In this document: positions 33,815-43,627 of the stretch, one piece after another
Layout: every line of letters starts with the position of its first letter
Position numbering within the stretch: position 1 is the first letter of the stretch
From: an uncultured Spirochaetaceae bacterium
Lineage (GTDB): Bacteria; Spirochaetota; Spirochaetia; Sphaerochaetales; Sphaerochaetaceae
Length of the DNA stretch: 64,000 nucleotides
Reading direction: 5' to 3'
Assembly (NCBI GenBank): GCA_944388955.1
Contig: CALXKJ010000002.1
Location: 1 to 64,000 of the forward strand
Program-made: the position numbers and the translations under genes
Notes under the pieces: model-generated
The model's input: the letters and a program-made list of their open reading frames with translations, nothing else
Databases searched by the model: none
What the model was told of the DNA's origin: nothing

Positions 33815-33970
33815 ATCAATTTACTTGACTCAAAGAGCTTATGCGAACTGGGGAAAGGTAAGTATCATTGTCATCTGAGCTATCATTGGGTAGCTTGTTG
33901 GCAATGTAAGAATGGAGAATATATTATCGAGGTGTATTATGCTGTTAGTCGTGAATCAGCCCCATACTGA
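33815..33970 (+). pseudogene. Possible 3' remnant of a toxin gene
   Basis: An open frame without a start codon ends in TGA at 33968. It encodes about 51 residues ending G-K-Y-H-C-H-L-S-Y-H-W-V-A-C-W, then I-I-E-V-Y-Y-A-V-S-R-E-S-A-P-Y. The tail overlaps the start of the XRE antitoxin gene by 32 bases, as in toxin-first type II modules. The composition looks protein-like, but the in-frame stop at 33812 removes any N-terminus. The toxin assignment rests on context and resemblance and is tentative. Confidence 0.35.
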
Positions 33971-34316
33971 GGGATTTAGAATTGAAGGAAGAATTCCAAA
34001 AGACGTTCTCGACTATGTTGAGAGAAGGTATAACAAAGAGAATATTTCTGTGCTGAATGATGATGGTGAAGAGCTTTTTGATCCTACAGAAATGGATTTC
34101 TATAAGGAGATGAAAGCTACAGAGACACCTAGCGGCAATCTTCGCTTCTACAGAAAGCTTGTAGGCATGACTCAGCCTGAACTTGCTGCAAAACTTGGGA
34201 CAAGCAAACAGGCAATTTCCCTTATGGAGAATAACAGGCGTCCAATCAGCCGCAAGACAGCTAGGGAGCTTGGCGAGATTTTCCATGTTACTCCGAAACG
34301 TTTCTTCGGTCTGTGA
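33939..34316 (+). CDS. XRE-family helix-turn-helix protein, antitoxin-like
   Basis: 125 residues from the ATG at 33939, which follows GAGGTG; an in-frame ATG at 33912 lacks a ribosome site. The C-terminal half is a Cro/XRE domain: F-Y-R-K-L-V-G-M-T-Q-P-E-L-A-A-K-L-G, then S-K-Q-A-I-S-L-M-E-N-N-R-R-P-I-S. It ends H-V-T-P-K-R-F-F. The layout fits antitoxins that repress their own operon. The upstream toxin appears truncated. Confidence 0.75.
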   Translation: MLLVVNQPHTEGFRIEGRIPKDVLDYVERRYNKENISVLNDDGEELFDPTEMDFYKEMKATETPSGNLRFYRKLVGMTQPELAAKLGTSKQAISLMENNRRPISRKTARELGEIFHVTPKRFFGL

Positions 34317-34573: not shown

Positions 34574-34859
34574 CTCTAAGTTTTTCTTGTGTTTGTTATC
34601 TATTTTGCATTTTATTACAGAAAACTTTTTCCCTGAAGTTCTCAGAGAGTGTCCTTATGATTATTGAGCTATCTCATGATTTCTGGAAGCCGTCAAAAAG
34701 ACTCATTTAATAAAATCTTCCGACTGAATGATTCCAGATGTCTAAAAAGACAACAGTCAATTTATAGCTTGGCTATTGTTACTTGCTATTTGTATTGTTT
34801 ATCAGAAATTACAATCTTCTGAATCATTTAATTAGAAATTCAGAATAAGACATTTATAC
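34574..34859. other. AT-rich intergenic region before the poly-G promoter
   Basis: No gene is supported here. TTCTGAAT (34817-34824) and ATTCAGAA (34838-34845) form an 8-base inverted repeat about 15 bases upstream of the candidate -35 box. This could be a regulator site. Confidence 0.3.
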
Positions 34860-34890
34860 TTGACGATTTGGTACCGGGGGGGGGTAGCAT
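34860..34890 (+). promoter_or_regulatory. Promoter with poly-G spacer, phase-variation candidate
   Basis: TTGACG (34860-34865) and TAGCAT (34885-34890) are separated by 19 bases that include nine consecutive G (34876-34884). Loss of two G would give the optimal 17-base spacing. A start near 34897 would leave a short leader with GGGAG at 34900 and the ATG at 34913. The promoter call is moderate because TAGCAT is a weak -10; a second candidate is TGTAAT at 34890. Confidence 0.5.
34876..34884. repeat. Homopolymeric G9 tract
   Basis: Nine consecutive G residues lie in an otherwise AT-rich intergenic region. Such tracts change length by slipped-strand mispairing. Confidence 0.95.
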
Positions 34891-34912
34891 GTAATAGTTG
34901 GGAGTTCTCAAA

Positions 34913-35341
34913 ATGAAACGAGTTGTCCTTATAGGTTGTGGTAGCAAAAAGAAGGATGGGGTTCACAAGGCGAAAGATCTTTATGATAGCGATTATTTCA
35001 GGAAGAAATATGCCTATGCTCTTACTTTTGATTGCCCGATATTCATTCTTTCTGCAAAGCACCATCTGCTGTATCCAGAAGCGGAAATAGAGAAATATAA
35101 TGAATCGCTTAAGGATAAGACTGCCACTGAAAAGAAGGAGTGGACAGCTATCGTTCTTTCAGATCTCAAGAAGCATTTTGATCTCAACGATACTCAATTT
35201 GTGATTCTTGCTGGTGATGATTACTGCAAGTATCTCGAGGATAGCATAAATCCAGTCAGACCATTGAAGGGAATGAAAATCGGTGAACAGAATCATTTCC
35301 TTGCTGATGAAATCAAGAAGAAGAGTGTGGAGATGATATGA
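34913..35341 (+). CDS. DUF6884 (YaaA-like) protein
   Basis: 142 residues from the ATG at 34913; a TTG at 34898 is in frame but less likely. The N-terminus R-V-V-L-I-G-C-G-S-K-K-K-D-G and K-A-K-D-L-Y-D-S-D-Y-F-R-K are hallmarks of DUF6884. I-L-S-A-K-H-H-L-L-Y-P then follows, plus a late L-A-G-D-D-Y. The family is related to the YaaA/DUF328 fold. Function is not established; a nucleic-acid role is sometimes suggested. Its stop overlaps the giant lipoprotein start by ATGA, so the two are coupled. Confidence 0.75.
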   Translation: MKRVVLIGCGSKKKDGVHKAKDLYDSDYFRKKYAYALTFDCPIFILSAKHHLLYPEAEIEKYNESLKDKTATEKKEWTAIVLSDLKKHFDLNDTQFVILAGDDYCKYLEDSINPVRPLKGMKIGEQNHFLADEIKKKSVEMI

Positions 35342-38300
35342 AGAAGCTTTATGTTGCATTTGCATGTTTCCTGATAGTGCTTGGTATTGTAATCGGATGT
35401 AAATCAGATAATCCTCTGAAATATTCAACACCTACAGCTGTTGGAAGTATTATGCTTCCGTCCGATTCTGATATTGCGTTTGATGACATCTATGTACGTG
35501 TAGAAGAGACAGGAAAACAATACATAGTTTCTGAAGATGGAACATGGAATGTACAAGGGCTAGAAGAAGGCAGTACATACACACTCTACTTCCAGAACAA
35601 ACCATTTCTTGATGTCACCCGAGGTTTATCAAAATCATCAGAGAAGATTTATTCAGCAAGAAAAACAGGAGTCATTGCAGCTCCCGGCAATGGTGCAGAT
35701 AACGGTATAGTACAACTGAAAATCGGTGCCGCAATAAGCGGTACTGTGAAAACCAGAGATGGTCTGCCTCTATCTGATGCAACTGCATATATACCAGATT
35801 CCCCATATATCACCCAGACTGACAGTGACGGCAGATTCACGCTTGAAGGTATACCTTCCGGCATTTATCCGATTGGCGTCAGCAAACAAGGGTATACTGA
35901 AACCATTCTCGATGAAATAACTGTAATCGCTGAAGATGATGAAATCAGAACTTATGAAATTCCTACTCCTGTTGAACTAGCAAGCAGTCTTGGCTCAATC
36001 CAGGGCTCGGTCTATTTTGAGGGTAGTACCTCAATCGGAAAGCGGACTGCTACAGTTACGGCTGAGAATATATCTGTATTGGGTTCTGCAAGGACTGTGA
36101 CTACCAATGAAAGTGGTGTTTTCCTTATAGATAACCTGCCTGCTGGAGACTATAAAGTAACAGTCAGCACCACTTCTTCCTATCAGCCACATACTATTGA
36201 TAATGTCAGTGTTGGAGTTTCATCCTCTGTAATCCTCGATCCTGTTTATCTACGGGCAATTGGTGGAATAATGTCTGGCAGAGTTTCCACATCAGATGGC
36301 TCATCTCCTGCAAGTGCAACTATTTTGCTATCATCAATATCAAGTGACGAGCAGTATCTAGGGACTGTCAATGATGATGGCTCATATATTATTGAAAACA
36401 TTATTGCTGGTGATTATGTATGCACCGTCTCAATGGATGGATTTGTCTCAATCATCGATAACGTTAAGATAACACAAGGAAAAGTTCTTATTAACAATAT
36501 CGATCTTATTGCTGTGAATGGAACGATTATCGGCAGGGTAGTGCTCAGAGGAGCTGCCAATAATTCCGGTGTTACTATAATTGCTGAAAACCTTGATAAC
36601 CCAAGTTATACACATTCCACTTCGACACAGGATTATGGAACATTCACGATTTCCGGAATAAGAAAGGAAGGCAACTATCAGGTAAGAATCAGCAAGGATG
36701 GTTACGCATCTTATACATCTGAAACTATAAACGTCATATCCGGAGATCAGGCGAGCATCGGTACAGTGACATTGGAGCCATTGGATGCCTCGCTTAGCGG
36801 AAATATAACGCTCCGTGGAGCTTCCTCGTATAAGGGTATTGAAGTTGTCATTGAGAGCAGTGGAATCAAATATGATACCACTACTGACAGCGCTGGCGAC
36901 TTTTTCTTCCCGCATATTCCAGCTGGGACATATACAATGGTTGTCTCATATCCGGGTTATGTTACAAGGACTTTGAATCCGATACTTGTTTCACAGTCTG
37001 AGGTAAAAGTCCTTGATAATCTCGTGCTGGAAATCGCTGTGTTGCCATTCTCAGGACATGTGACTCTTGAAGGAGTTGATGATTATTCTGGTGTTACAGT
37101 TTCGGCTGTCAATATGGTAGATGGGGATATAGTCTACGCGGCTGAAACAGATGAGTCCGGATATTATTCGATAGACGGCATGGAGCCGGGCGCTTATGTT
37201 ATTGCTTTCTCGAAAGCTGGCTACCTTACTTATACGACTACTGCTGTAGTTGCAGCTGGTGTCGAGGGTAAAGCTGACGCTGATCTTGAAATCGGAACAA
37301 GCATTATCACGGGAAGAGTATATCTTGATGGTGCTTCATCATATGATGGAATCACTGTAACAGCTATGAATATGGCCGATTCAAACGATACTTATAGTAC
37401 CGTTACAGGTGCTGATGGCTCTTTCAGCATTGTTGATGTCAAGAAAGAAGGCACATATCAGCTTAAAGCCGAAAAGAAAGGCTATACAACAGTATTCTCT
37501 GATACCATTAAAGTTCTATTCGGGTTTGTCAACGATATTGGTGCAATTACTCTCCCAAGCGTCAATGGAAGCATTTCCGGTACTGCTGTACTGGAGGGAA
37601 GTTATTATCATGAAGAAATCGATATAACCCTATCCAATGATGATAATTCATATTCAGCTACAACGGATTCCGATGGCGTATTTGACATTCCATCAGTTGT
37701 TCCTGGAACTTATACTCTTACAGCCTCAAAAGATGGTTATGGATCAAAGACTGTCAATGGTGTTTCTGTCATCCAGAGCAAGAATACCGAAATCGGCAAG
37801 ATATCTCTTGTTCTTGATTATCAGAGTATAAGCGGATCTGTAACGCTTGAGGATATGGTAGATGCCTCTGGCATTCTCGTTAAAGCTACGAGCAAGGATG
37901 GGAACCGCACATATAACGCTACGACATCTTATGACGGCTCTTTTGCAATAGGACAAGTTTCTCCTGGCACATACACTGTTGAATTCTCGAAAGAAGGATA
38001 CCTTACATCAAGCAAAACAGTTGTTGTTCAAGCCGGTAGTCCCGCTAAGGTTGATGCAGAGCTCATTCTTGGCTCCAGCATAATCACTGGTAAAATCATG
38101 CTGGAGGGTGCAGAGTCATATGAAGGTGTAATAGTCTGTGCAACCTTTGCTGCCGATACGCGCATTTTCTATGAAGTTCAGACTGAAGAGGACGGCACAT
38201 TCTCAATCGTGAATATCGAAAGGGAAGGCAACTATCGTATCGCGGCATCATATGACGGGTATCAGAGCTATTCATCCGGAAACATCGCAGTTGAATTCGG

Positions 38301-41300
38301 AGAGGTTGTCACAGTACCAGATGTCACGCTTATCAGTGTACTTGGCTCAGTGACAGGTTCTGTGAAACTGGAAGGTGTTCTGTATCATGATGAAATAGCC
38401 ATCACGCTTAAGAATGATGGCAATGAGTATACAGCAACGACAGGAGTGGATGGCTCGTTCACGGTTCTCTCCGTTAAGCCTGGTACATATACACTCATAG
38501 TATCGAAGGATGGTTATGTAACCTCGACAACAGAGAACGTAATAGTTACTCAGGGAAAAGAAACAGCGATTTCATCTGTAATACTCCCATATTCCCGGCT
38601 GACGCTTTCTGGTACTGTATCACTTGACGGAGCCTCTGCTTATACCGATGTGCTTATTACATTGACTAGCACATCTAATGAGAGTGTTGCTCACTCAGTT
38701 TATACAAATGAGTCCGGAGATTATTCAATCAATGGCATTGTTCCCGGAACTTACCGGATAACCGTTACAAAGGCTGGATATGTTGAATATACAGATACTA
38801 TAACAATAGCCTCTGGTACTGAGCCATCTTATGATGTTCAGCTTATTCCAATGACGGGAAGCATATCCGGTAAGATATTGCTTGATGGTGCAAAGGATTA
38901 TTCTGGTATAAAAGTCATAGCTGTTAACTCCAGTTCAGAAGAGCATAGCTATGAAACAAATTCCAACAGTGATGGCTCATACCATATTGCGGGAATACGA
39001 CCAGAAGGACTTTATATCATCAAAGCACTGAAAGATGGATATGCGAATGATAACTCGACATCTGTCAATGTCGTCTACGGGGAGAATACAGTAGTCGATA
39101 CAATAACTCTTGTTAAGACGAGTGCTGTTGTAAAGGGAGTAGCTGAGCTTGAAAATCGCTCATCTCATAGTGGAATAACTGTTCAGCTTTCAAATGAAGA
39201 AGGCAATGAATATGAGACCGCGACAGATTCTTCAGGTTTTTATGCCTTTACAGGTGTCGTCCCAGGTGAATATATCTTAACGATTTCAAAAGGTGGGTAT
39301 ACAGAAAAAACTGTTAATCCTGTCACTGTCTTGCAGTCTGGAAATGTTGAAATCGAGAAGATTGTTCTGACAGAAATGGTTCTTCCATTCTCTGGTCATG
39401 TTAGACTTGAAGGGACAGAAGATTATTCCGGCGTACTTGTAACAGCTACAAATCTTTCAGATAACAAGGTTGTATATTCAACATACACTGAAGAAGATGG
39501 CTCTTACTCTTTTGAATCTATGATGGCTGGAAGTTATGAGATTCGTTTCTCAAAGGCAGGCTATCTCACTTGGACTACAGAAGTTTCTGTTGTTTTCGGT
39601 GCGGCTGGAGCCTTGGATGCAGAGCTGTCTCTTGATTCAGGCGCTATTACAGGATATGTCCTGTTAGAGAATCAGACAGATCATTCTGGAATATCTGTAG
39701 TTGCATTCAATTCTGGAAATGAAGAGGAAAGCTATAATGCAACAACAGCCGAAGATGGCTCTTTCACTATTTCCGGAATAAAGAATGCAGGACGATATGT
39801 CATCACGGCCTCCAAGGATGGTTACACTCCTGATAATTCCCATTTTGCCGAGGTAGTTCTTGGTAAAGTAAGCTCGATAGGGACATTCACGCTTTCAGAT
39901 TTCAATTCAACAGTCAAAGGGAAAGTTGAGCTTTCTGGAGCGGCTATTCATAATGGAGTTTCCATTGTTCTTCAGGAGAAAGATGGTGACTTGCAATATA
40001 CAGCGACTACAGATGATGATGGCGAGTATATCATTTCTGATGTTGTTCCAGACAAATACTATATTGTCAGTGCAAGTAAGGAAGGTTATACAGCAAAGTC
40101 ATCTGCATCCACTTATGTAAGTTCTTCTAGTGTCACTGAAATACCTCTTATTACACTTACTGTCAGCCGTATATCTATCAGGGGAACAGTGCATCTTGAA
40201 GGTGAGGAGACGCACTCCAGTGCTGTTGTAACAGCTGTAAATGTGGAAGATGCAAGTATTGTATATACAGGTATTACAAGCAGTTCTGGTGCCTTCTCGC
40301 TCGCTGGAATGATTGCAGGAGAATACATAATTTCAATAAGCAAAGATGGTTATCGTACTATTACGCTTGAGACTGTAAATATTGAAACTGATTCGAGTAC
40401 AATCAATCTAAAGACTATTGAGCTTCCAAGAGCTGTTGGTACGATTACTGGCGTTGCTCGTCTTGAAGGCAGTACTGATCATTCGGGAATAACAGTATTA
40501 CTTGTTGGCACAGAATATACCGCTGTCACCAACAATGATGGTGTGTATGAGATGATTGTTCCGCCAGATACATATACTGGTGGATTGCGGTTTACAAGAG
40601 ATGATTATGAGCTGCAATCTCTCGCTGAAATCATTCCTGTCATAACAGAAAGCATTTACACTATCACGACTGATGTTCAGCTGAATTGTCTTGCTTCAAC
40701 AGTCACAGGACGTATTGATGTTCTTGGTACAGATGATGATAGCGCTGTAACTGTGAGCATAGAGGGCACAGATTTCTCTGCTGTTACAGAAAGTGATGGT
40801 ATATTCACGATAGAGCATGTTCCTCTTGGAAACTATACTCTTCTTATTCAGCATACGAATGCCTCAATTGTTTCAAAGCAATTTGCTGTTGAGGCAGGTT
40901 TAACCAATGATTTAGGTACAATCAGCGTCATTCCTAATGCGGCAACATTAACAGGTAAGGTTCTCCTTGTTGGAATGGTTGATAACTCTGGCATAACTGT
41001 CACTGCTGAGTGTATAGATGGGGAAGTGGAGTCTCTCTCTGCTGTAACAAACAAGGATGGCTCATTCTATATCGGCAATGTCATCACTGGGTATAATTAC
41101 ACAGTTTCATTCGTAAAGGACGGATGGGTTAGTGATACAATCGAGAGCGTTACAGATCTTGAGCCCCTAGAGGAGAGAAACCTTACCCCTGAAGGTGCTA
41201 TTACCCTTTATGATACTGAAGCTCCTGTGCTTTTTTCTGTGACCATCAATGATGGCGCGAACACATCATCTGAAGCTGTAGTTGAAATTCATCTTGAGGC

Positions 41301-43059
41301 ATCAGACTTGGGTAGCGGTCTTAAGAAGATGCAATACTGTTTCGACAATAGGTTTGACAATACTGTCACAATGCGCGATTACAGTGATGCATTTACGGTT
41401 GAACTCCCTGAAGAAAATGGGGACAAGACAATATATGTCAAAGTTTATGATGCTTCTGGGAATGCTTCCGAAATAGCATCTGCGACTGTTACTCTTGTTG
41501 ATCAGGTCAAGGGTGTTGAAGGCCCTTTGAGCGATGATGAGCTGCATTGGACAAAGGATAAGTCACCTTATCTTGTTACTGGTGATATCCTTGTTCCTGA
41601 AGGCTCAACACTTATAATTGATTCAGGTGTTGATGTCCAGTTCAATGGTGCTTACTACATACAGATTGAAGGTACACTGCAGGCGGTTGGCTCCGAAACG
41701 GAGAGAATCAAATTCTATGGCGTCAACGATGGTTTTGATAAGTGGCTTGGCTTGAGGTTCATCAATAACAACAATTCTGTTCTTGATTACGTTGATTACT
41801 ATGATGCTGATGAAGGAGTCTCCGGAGCTGTTGAAATAACTAATTCCACACTCGAGTTCAATGATATTAATGACCGTGAATTCTCGGGGACAATCAAGAA
41901 ATCTGAGTTAAATATGAATTCAATTAAACTCCGCGGCACACCTTATATGGAAGACGTTGTGATATCAGGAAGAGGCTCAAGTGTAGGAAGCATTGAAACT
42001 TCTTCTTCTTCGTTTATCAATTGTACGATACAGGATGTAGGAAGCATTGAAACTTCTTATTCTTCTTCGTTTATCAATTGTACGATACAGGATGTAGGAA
42101 GCATTGAAACTTCTTATTCTTCTTCTTCGTTTATCAATTGTATGATACAGGATGTAGGAAGCATTGAAACTTCTTCTTCTACTTCTTCTTCGTTTATCAA
42201 TTGTACGATACAGGATGTAGGAAGCATTGAAACTTCTTATTCTTCTTATCCTTATTTTATCAATTGTATCTTGGAGAGAGTAAATGAATTTAAAGCCACA
42301 AGCGATCAAGCGTACTTATCGATAGTCAATTCCAATATCATTGAATGTGGTTCTTTTGATATCGCTACTGCAAGAAGTGAGTATGAGACGCTGGATTTCC
42401 GCAATAACTTCTGGGATTATGATAAGACACGAGAATTCAATGAGTCTAAAGATGGAGATGTCAGCTTTATCAATGACTATTATGATGATTTCAATCTTTC
42501 CCGTGTTGATTACTCTGGATATGTTGAGGAGCCTCTGGAAGATGTTGGTGTCCTTGATGAAGGATACATACCGCCAGAGCTTCCTGAAGGAAGTGCCTTC
42601 AATCTTGGTGATATAGGACCAGGAGGCGGGAAAATCGTCTATGTCGATACAGATAATGAATACCCGGATTGGGAATATATCGAAGCAATAAATACATATT
42701 TCGAGTTGCCATTTGGCTATTATCGTGCATCAGATAGCGGAGCTAATGGGAAAGTTGGGACTTCTGCAGATGTTGGTGCTGGTAAAGACAATACAGAAGC
42801 ATTGGTTAATGCTATGGGTGATTACGCTTATACTTCTTCTTCTGGAAGTGCCAAAGGAATGTATGCTGCTAAGTTTGCCTCGATAGTCAATGCAGGTAGA
42901 TATGAGTGGTATCTTCCGAGCTCTGGAGATAATAAACTGATTGGCTCTTCAGGGTGGTCATCCACTGAATCCAGCGCTACTGGAGCATATTATTCAAGTT
43001 CTAGAATGGAGGATTATAGAGGCGATAAAAAGTCAGTGACAATTATCAGGTATTTCTAA
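35338..43059 (+). CDS. Giant surface lipoprotein with 21 carboxypeptidase-regulatory-like modules
   Basis: 2573 residues. The signal peptide ends in the lipobox V-I-G-C (Cys about residue 21). Next come about 21 modules of roughly 85 residues with the core x-G-T-Y-x-L-x-x-S-K-D-G-Y, the CarboxypepD_reg/SdrB-like beta-sandwich type. They extend to about residue 1960. A further Ig-like domain (about 1960-2060) follows. A right-handed beta-helix-like part (about 2062-2400) contains a Ser-rich minisatellite. The C-terminus has D-I-G-P-G-G-G-K-I-V-Y-V-D and G-W-S-S-T-E-S-S-A-T, resembling Lcl/DUF1566. It is probably a surface adhesin. Confidence 0.85.
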   Translation: MKKLYVAFACFLIVLGIVIGCKSDNPLKYSTPTAVGSIMLPSDSDIAFDDIYVRVEETGKQYIVSEDGTWNVQGLEEGSTYTLYFQNKPFLDVTRGLSKSSEKIYSARKTGVIAAPGNGADNGIVQLKIGAAISGTVKTRDGLPLSDATAYIPDSPYITQTDSDGRFTLEGIPSGIYPIGVSKQGYTETILDEITVIAEDDEIRTYEIPTPVELASSLGSIQGSVYFEGSTSIGKRTATVTAENISVLGSARTVTTNESGVFLIDNLPAGDYKVTVSTTSSYQPHTIDNVSVGVSSSVILDPVYLRAIGGIMSGRVSTSDGSSPASATILLSSISSDEQYLGTVNDDGSYIIENIIAGDYVCTVSMDGFVSIIDNVKITQGKVLINNIDLIAVNGTIIGRVVLRGAANNSGVTIIAENLDNPSYTHSTSTQDYGTFTISGIRKEGNYQVRISKDGYASYTSETINVISGDQASIGTVTLEPLDASLSGNITLRGASSYKGIEVVIESSGIKYDTTTDSAGDFFFPHIPAGTYTMVVSYPGYVTRTLNPILVSQSEVKVLDNLVLEIAVLPFSGHVTLEGVDDYSGVTVSAVNMVDGDIVYAAETDESGYYSIDGMEPGAYVIAFSKAGYLTYTTTAVVAAGVEGKADADLEIGTSIITGRVYLDGASSYDGITVTAMNMADSNDTYSTVTGADGSFSIVDVKKEGTYQLKAEKKGYTTVFSDTIKVLFGFVNDIGAITLPSVNGSISGTAVLEGSYYHEEIDITLSNDDNSYSATTDSDGVFDIPSVVPGTYTLTASKDGYGSKTVNGVSVIQSKNTEIGKISLVLDYQSISGSVTLEDMVDASGILVKATSKDGNRTYNATTSYDGSFAIGQVSPGTYTVEFSKEGYLTSSKTVVVQAGSPAKVDAELILGSSIITGKIMLEGAESYEGVIVCATFAADTRIFYEVQTEEDGTFSIVNIEREGNYRIAASYDGYQSYSSGNIAVEFGEVVTVPDVTLISVLGSVTGSVKLEGVLYHDEIAITLKNDGNEYTATTGVDGSFTVLSVKPGTYTLIVSKDGYVTSTTENVIVTQGKETAISSVILPYSRLTLSGTVSLDGASAYTDVLITLTSTSNESVAHSVYTNESGDYSINGIVPGTYRITVTKAGYVEYTDTITIASGTEPSYDVQLIPMTGSISGKILLDGAKDYSGIKVIAVNSSSEEHSYETNSNSDGSYHIAGIRPEGLYIIKALKDGYANDNSTSVNVVYGENTVVDTITLVKTSAVVKGVAELENRSSHSGITVQLSNEEGNEYETATDSSGFYAFTGVVPGEYILTISKGGYTEKTVNPVTVLQSGNVEIEKIVLTEMVLPFSGHVRLEGTEDYSGVLVTATNLSDNKVVYSTYTEEDGSYSFESMMAGSYEIRFSKAGYLTWTTEVSVVFGAAGALDAELSLDSGAITGYVLLENQTDHSGISVVAFNSGNEEESYNATTAEDGSFTISGIKNAGRYVITASKDGYTPDNSHFAEVVLGKVSSIGTFTLSDFNSTVKGKVELSGAAIHNGVSIVLQEKDGDLQYTATTDDDGEYIISDVVPDKYYIVSASKEGYTAKSSASTYVSSSSVTEIPLITLTVSRISIRGTVHLEGEETHSSAVVTAVNVEDASIVYTGITSSSGAFSLAGMIAGEYIISISKDGYRTITLETVNIETDSSTINLKTIELPRAVGTITGVARLEGSTDHSGITVLLVGTEYTAVTNNDGVYEMIVPPDTYTGGLRFTRDDYELQSLAEIIPVITESIYTITTDVQLNCLASTVTGRIDVLGTDDDSAVTVSIEGTDFSAVTESDGIFTIEHVPLGNYTLLIQHTNASIVSKQFAVEAGLTNDLGTISVIPNAATLTGKVLLVGMVDNSGITVTAECIDGEVESLSAVTNKDGSFYIGNVITGYNYTVSFVKDGWVSDTIESVTDLEPLEERNLTPEGAITLYDTEAPVLFSVTINDGANTSSEAVVEIHLEASDLGSGLKKMQYCFDNRFDNTVTMRDYSDAFTVELPEENGDKTIYVKVYDASGNASEIASATVTLVDQVKGVEGPLSDDELHWTKDKSPYLVTGDILVPEGSTLIIDSGVDVQFNGAYYIQIEGTLQAVGSETERIKFYGVNDGFDKWLGLRFINNNNSVLDYVDYYDADEGVSGAVEITNSTLEFNDINDREFSGTIKKSELNMNSIKLRGTPYMEDVVISGRGSSVGSIETSSSSFINCTIQDVGSIETSYSSSFINCTIQDVGSIETSYSSSSFINCMIQDVGSIETSSSTSSSFINCTIQDVGSIETSYSSYPYFINCILERVNEFKATSDQAYLSIVNSNIIECGSFDIATARSEYETLDFRNNFWDYDKTREFNESKDGDVSFINDYYDDFNLSRVDYSGYVEEPLEDVGVLDEGYIPPELPEGSAFNLGDIGPGGGKIVYVDTDNEYPDWEYIEAINTYFELPFGYYRASDSGANGKVGTSADVGAGKDNTEALVNAMGDYAYTSSSGSAKGMYAAKFASIVNAGRYEWYLPSSGDNKLIGSSGWSSTESSATGAYYSSSRMEDYRGDKKSVTIIRYF
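36520..40430 (+). repeat. Five copies of a three-module (about 780 bp) supra-repeat
   Basis: Within the giant lipoprotein, modules 4-18 fall into repeating classes A-B-C. Class A contains E-G-x-Y and ends T-I/V-T-L (modules 4, 7, 10, 13, 16). Class B has H-x-G/E-I, V-P-G-T-Y and V-x-Q-S/G (5, 8, 11, 14, 17). Class C has D-Y-S-G-V, S-K-A-G-Y-L-T and a D-A-E-L-like end (6, 9, 12, 15, 18). Equivalent points lie 777-783 bases apart. This indicates expansion by duplication of the trimodular unit. Confidence 0.7.
41983..42276 (+). repeat. Coding minisatellite with units of 54, 57, 60, 63 and about 60 bases
   Basis: Five tandem units begin GTAGGAAGCATTGAAACTTCT; the first four end with ACGATACAGGAT or a one-base variant. 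Starts are at 41983, 42037, 42094, 42154 and 42217. Units differ in the number of TCT/TAT codons, so the encoded S-I-E-T-S-(Y/S)n-F-I-N-C-x-I-Q-D-V repeat grows one residue per copy over four copies. The fifth is degenerate. All changes preserve frame. Confidence 0.95.
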
Positions 43060-43084: not shown

Positions 43085-43627
43085 ATGATCAAAGCTATTG
43101 TACTAAGAAACAAGGATGAACTTGCAAAAGTTCCTGGAAACAAGCCTGGCTACTATAAGTGGTGGGCTGAGAAAACGGAATTCGATGCTCTCTGTGAGGG
43201 ACTTGGTGTCGATTCGGCATCGATTATCAATGAAGTCGAGACAAAGGATGGACTGTATTGCATTTATGTTGGTGTCGCTGTTGGCAATTCAATAAGGACA
43301 AGGCTTGATTGGCATATAAACGATTCAAATGATGAGGAGCGTGTTAGCTCTGGTTTCCTTTCAACTTTCAGAGAGAGCATTGGCGCGGTTATCGCTCATG
43401 ACCAGAGGAACAAGGATGCTATCAATGCCTTCATCGATAAGCTCTATGTTGAGTATTATGCTCTTGATTGCAAAATCAAGTCTGAGGAAGCGAAGACAGA
43501 GCTTGAGCGTATAGAGAATGAGGAAATAGCTTCCCATCTCAGGCTTCTCAACATTCAGAAGAATCACTATGAAGGCATAGAGCCGATTCTCAAGACACTG
43601 AGGGATCTCAGAGCTGCGAGTAAGTGA
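43085..43627 (+). CDS. GIY-YIG-like nuclease-family protein
   Basis: 180 residues, AGGAGG-preceded. The central stretch G-L-Y-C-I-Y-V-G-V-A-V followed by S-I-R-T-R-L-D-W-H-I matches the GIY-YIG core with its conserved Arg. Y-K-W-W-A and N-A-F-I-D-K-L-Y-V-E-Y-Y, with a late Glu, fit a subfamily of stand-alone GIY-YIG proteins. Catalysis on DNA is plausible but not shown. It lies 25 bases after the giant lipoprotein gene, likely in the same transcript. Confidence 0.7.
   Translation: MIKAIVLRNKDELAKVPGNKPGYYKWWAEKTEFDALCEGLGVDSASIINEVETKDGLYCIYVGVAVGNSIRTRLDWHINDSNDEERVSSGFLSTFRESIGAVIAHDQRNKDAINAFIDKLYVEYYALDCKIKSEEAKTELERIENEEIASHLRLLNIQKNHYEGIEPILKTLRDLRAASK

Follow-up and report, generated by a model that had tools for sequence, protein, structure and literature searches.

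In Treponema pallidum, the gene tp0126, which encodes an OmpW homologue, carries a poly-G tract between its -35 and -10 elements and is transcribed best at a spacing of 17 nt (PMC7864442). In the same work, 76% of the 17 poly-G tracts tested were clearly length-variable, and at tprL, where the tract overlaps the -10 region, the authors exclude a spacing mechanism of the porA type. The comparison is with porA of Neisseria meningitidis, for which that paper cites a poly-G tract in the promoter spacer and control of transcription by spacing. The portion of PMC8049484 considered here gives counts of G/C homopolymers per genome for treponemes. Our search of the open-access literature, with subscription papers outside its scope, found no paper describing the poly-G promoter class reported here.

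The window, i.e. the whole 64,000-nucleotide stretch of DNA analysed, contains such an arrangement on its forward strand. A run of nine G (34876..34884), a candidate slippage (phase-variation) element, is located between a recognisable -35 element, TTGACG (34860..34865), and a recognisable -10 element, TAGCAT (34885..34890), for which the class consensus is TAnnnT and often TAGnCT. The 19-base spacer (34866..34884) is composed of ATTTGGTACC followed by the tract, and TTGACG occupies the position of TTGACA in the sibling promoters of the same genome. The tract sits within the spacer of an apparent sigma70-type promoter, with the transcription start predicted at 34897, 7 bases past the -10 element. 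A Shine-Dalgarno-like GGGAG (34900..34904) precedes the first start codon, the ATG at 34913, 28 nt beyond the tract. The first gene of the operon encodes a 142-aa DUF6884 protein (34913..35341; PF21818, E 5.6e-38), the 3' end of which overlaps at 35338, through ATGA, the open reading frame of a 2573-aa lipoprotein (35338..43059) with the lipobox IVIGC and domain matches to repeated CarboxypepD_reg-like beta-sandwiches. A preliminary description of this DNA had given the same arrangement, from the 19-base spacing to the ATGA coupling, and this observation was confirmed.

The operon thus includes a gene for an exported protein, in line with the promoter class, whose targets are mostly lipoprotein genes, and the target proteins are presumably located at the surface. 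Neither downstream product belongs to the Tpr family. Immediately 3' of the lipoprotein, also on the forward strand, a GIY-YIG domain protein is encoded (43085..43627; PF20815, E 1.5e-23), possibly on the same transcript. Between 32000 and 44000, the G+C content is 0.39-0.42 versus 0.45-0.52 around it; this region holds an HTH_3 protein (33912-34316), the poly-G operon and the GIY-YIG protein, and has possibly been acquired.

The window has three overlapping G7 words, a count equalled in 39 of 100 shuffles and hence not unusual. Since a lone G9 in 64 kb is unremarkable, we asked if such tracts stand out in the genome as a whole and in related genomes. The genome (2.1 Mb) contains 25 tracts of at least 7 G, comprising three of G7, one of G8 and 21 of 9-11 G. 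Tracts arising by chance would be expected to thin out as length increases, yet 9 is the peak, so that the excess is clear at the genome scale. At least 11 of the 21 tracts of at least 9 G have TTGAC at promoter distance, against a chance expectation of about 0.06 in a simple calculation that allows 6 offsets and either A or G after TTGAC. The common arrangement is TTGAC(A/G), 8 to 12 bases, G9 or G10 and TAnnnT, located 26-84 nt 5' of an open reading frame that mostly opens like MKKI..LL..AFTAC, a lipoprotein leader. Beta-barrel, BspA-type LRR and beta-helix domains are among those found in these proteins, and many targets have no match in the domain search. With sibling tracts both here and in the genus, the tract is ruled out as an isolated oddity. 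Nearly all the promoter tracts of this genome have exactly 9 G, a uniformity that, counted against phase variation, could reflect a fixed working length.

The siblings also bear on where transcription begins. A simple promoter scan lists an overlapping candidate, TAGAAA-16-TATACT (34833-34860), from which transcription would leave the tract merely in the 5' leader. However, the scan returns no more sites than shuffles do (9 vs 9.3), and the siblings share TTGACA-G9-TAnnnT without an upstream TATACT. On these two grounds we disfavour a 5'-leader placement and consider transcription from that or another promoter to be highly improbable.

Across the genus, a stereotyped class of poly-G promoters is as good as shown. 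The pattern TTGACA...GGGGGGGGTA (TTGACA...G8TA), searched with a free gap of 0-30 bases and with only the first two -10 bases fixed, gives 222 matches in 35 of 48 genomes as summed per-genome counts, each species being represented by a single genome, and the reversed control pattern gives none in the 48. Among the 150 matches listed of these 222, the spacer measures 15-23 bases in 149, with the mode at 19 (70/150) followed by 18 (30/150). Tract lengths range from 8 to 12 G with a strong peak at 9 G, and there is a genus-wide preference for AC(C) ahead of the tract. The sixth -10 base is T in 98% of 108 genus sites and in 100% of 20 other Spirochaetia sites; because this base is absent from the search pattern, its conservation is independent evidence that the tract adjoins a real -10 box. 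The middle of the -10 element is weakly conserved in the genus. Downstream, 89 of 92 open reading frames begin 22-46 nt past the tract, and 85 of the 92 contain a lipobox.

The class is patchy within the genus, by loss or gain. The exact TTGACA pattern has no match in 13 of the 48 genomes (G021, G027, G013, G031, G060, G062, G017, G022, G005, G011, G024, G020 and G035), some of which carry variants such as TTGACT (L052, L071). One of them, G062, has the only orthologous operon found, a DUF6884 orthologue and, after it, a lipoprotein of the same type (48% and 40% identity, respectively), and no G tract lies upstream of it, which weighs against phase variation. In another species (G001), DUF6884 homologues of 35-40% identity are encoded near two poly-G lipoprotein promoters (C5:2188 and C5:4807; L198, L201).

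The length of the tract changes faster than its surroundings. Among 20 promoter pairs that share at least 95% identity in their flanks (40+40 bases), 14 are unequal in tract length. Two contigs of one genome (G019) are identical over 183 bases save for G10 versus G9, and two promoters with near-identical protein starts (L242 and L253) have G9 and G8. Taken together, these cases imply that the tract mutates much faster than its flanks, as slippage predicts, which is evolutionary evidence at the level of the class drawn from sequence comparison. We did not accept the G9 and G10 contig ends as direct proof of heterogeneity within a population, because repeated promoter-plus-signal-peptide sequences can give the same breaks. 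Within the genus, longer tracts are not accompanied by a shorter remainder of the spacer (r = -0.02); a pooled value of r = -0.56 was set aside as it mixes clades.

The tract might alternatively be neutral or an assembly artefact. The assemblies are drafts (33 contigs), homopolymers are error-prone and some tracts lie at contig ends. Nevertheless, the lengths are bimodal, the tract has a fixed place in a conserved promoter, the same class recurs in numerous assemblies made independently, as well as in genomes of one contig, and an IS element has inserted on separate occasions beside such tracts. We therefore find this explanation barely credible.

Of the 12 copies of the insertion sequence that we examined, with the terminal repeat TGTCTACCTTCAGGGGGTTAGTTCA, 9 are located 2-4 bases 5' of a G tract and share the same orientation. 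Copies occur in the window's own genome (L344, C6:15-80; L339, C3:1-66; L331, C29 end; L350, C7 end) and in other genomes of the genus (L332, L336, L340, L341, L343, L345), and partial open reading frames at the IS end (L332, L336) resemble by eye the helix-turn-helix of IS3-family OrfA. The tract is part of the target, since the bases separating it from the IS end are variable. We had also considered a shuffling cassette for the contig-end tracts whose left flanks are identical, and rejected it since they look like IS-element ends beside G tracts. The flanks on contigs C7 and C6, which we presume to be a pair, read TTGACAGTTCAAAA and AAACG9TAAGCT and fit an IS insertion inside a poly-G promoter spacer. 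Two further IS-flanked tracts (L050, C29 end; L033, C3 start) are apparently within coding sequence on the other strand. If the candidate right flanks (L348, L349) are attached to them, one would have C9 in a leader-peptide region, and it is possible that both are coding phase-variable tracts.

Beyond the genus, the spacing-constrained pattern is present in 61 of 395 genomes of the taxonomic class, the majority belonging to the window's genus or to family f24. Tracts of G9-G18 and spacers of 12-24 bases occur in the genus to which G226 (complete, 2,843,201 bp) and G392 belong. In a scan of named genomes, the matches listed include uncultured gut Spirochaetales/Spirochaetaceae, Treponema and also many other phyla. 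Viral contigs gave 6 matches. Outside the spirochaetes, the T at the sixth -10 position is kept in 97 of 102 matches, meaning that the design is widespread, probably through convergence. At least two TTGACA-G9-TAnnnT promoters per genome were seen in the alphaproteobacterium Emb289P3bin18 (L092, L112), Streptobacillus notomytis (L155), Lentisphaerae (L110) and rabbit-gut 'Lapin' Bacilli (e.g. L127/L164, L107/L193, L157/L186). Such genomes outside Spirochaetia probably hold independent repertoires of the same design.

The polarity of the tract calls for a separate consideration. Poly-C in the same place has 1 match in the 48 genus genomes, and in the taxonomic class its pattern is found in 5 of 395 genomes versus 61 of 395 for poly-G. 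A pure spacing switch does not account for this near-absence. The polarity could originate from common descent of the promoters, or from a sigma factor reading the G's near the extended -10 position. Alternatively, the G run might be a fixed recognition element instead of a switch, with a regulator or the sigma/RNA polymerase needing coding-strand G's just 5' of the -10 element, much like an extended -10; the class would then amount to an ordinary regulon controlling lipoprotein genes. The almost exclusive use of poly-G, the strong peaks at 9 G and at spacers of 18-19 bases and the weak middle of the -10 element in the genus are all in accord with such an element. It is at odds with the unequal tracts in 14 of the 20 near-identical pairs and with the range of lengths, which spans 8-12 G in the genus and reaches from 9 to 18 G in that of G226, and we regard it as unlikely. 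Fixed recognition and a length switch can both be partly true. In one combined form, the G run would set the spacing and also be read by the transcription machinery, giving a dedicated, strand-specific class through which an entire set of surface lipoproteins is varied independently, one gene at a time, by one common promoter design; this we put forward tentatively, as a doubtful but conceivable case.

Phase variation through spacer length is, in our estimation, the best explanation of the poly-G promoter, with a probability of roughly three in four. The shared design consists of TTGACA, a stretch of about 10 bases that ends in AC(C), then G8-12 and TAGnCT, and the genus reuses it ahead of many exported lipoprotein genes. 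Replication slippage would alter the number of G's, and with it how far apart the -35 and -10 boxes lie and how they are rotated relative to each other; the altered geometry would in turn change the efficiency of initiation by RNA polymerase. If initiation depends on the tract in this manner, each lipoprotein gene could be turned up or down independently, and the outcome would be a mixed population with differing surface lipoproteins. Slippage within a population, its effect on transcription and its benefit to the cell are, on this account, presumed steps. The proposal in the preliminary description that the operon has a phase-variable promoter is borne out in part, in that the tract lies in the promoter spacer, belongs to a genus-wide class and, at the level of that class, changes in length faster than its flanks. 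Its further suggestion that the 19-base spacer represents a low-expression state is unsupported, because no other spacer length is as frequent in the genus and the 17-nt optimum comes from tp0126 of T. pallidum, another lineage. It is just as likely that 19 bases is a normal working length.

Phase variation of this kind would broaden a switch described for a handful of genes in pathogens into a large repertoire among uncultured spirochaetes of the gut, and the poly-G pattern is easily testable in metagenomic reads that already exist. That poly-C versions are nearly absent bears, in addition, on the way in which such promoters are read by RNA polymerase or by a regulator.

Among the known systems, the tpr genes of T. 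pallidum were those invoked in the preliminary description. The analogy holds in that the length of poly-G upstream of surface-protein genes (tprE/G/J and tprL) changes promoter activity, but the spacing mechanism is excluded at tprL (PMC7864442), where the tract overlaps the -10 region, whereas the window tract is wholly inside the spacer. As for the poly-G tracts of cultivated treponemes, the part of PMC8049484 considered here describes neither promoter placement nor a shared promoter class. The nearer analogues are porA and tp0126. Like the present site, porA has poly-G in the promoter spacer of a surface-protein gene, although it is a single locus in an unrelated bacterium and not a member of a multi-locus class. 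The tp0126 promoter likewise belongs to a spirochaete, has poly-G between the -35 and -10 elements with spacing set by its length, and drives a gene for an outer-membrane protein. It differs in being described for one gene with a 17-nt optimum, while the putative switch described here has a modal spacer of 19 and recurs, as one stereotyped promoter, at as many as a dozen or so lipoprotein genes in a genome.
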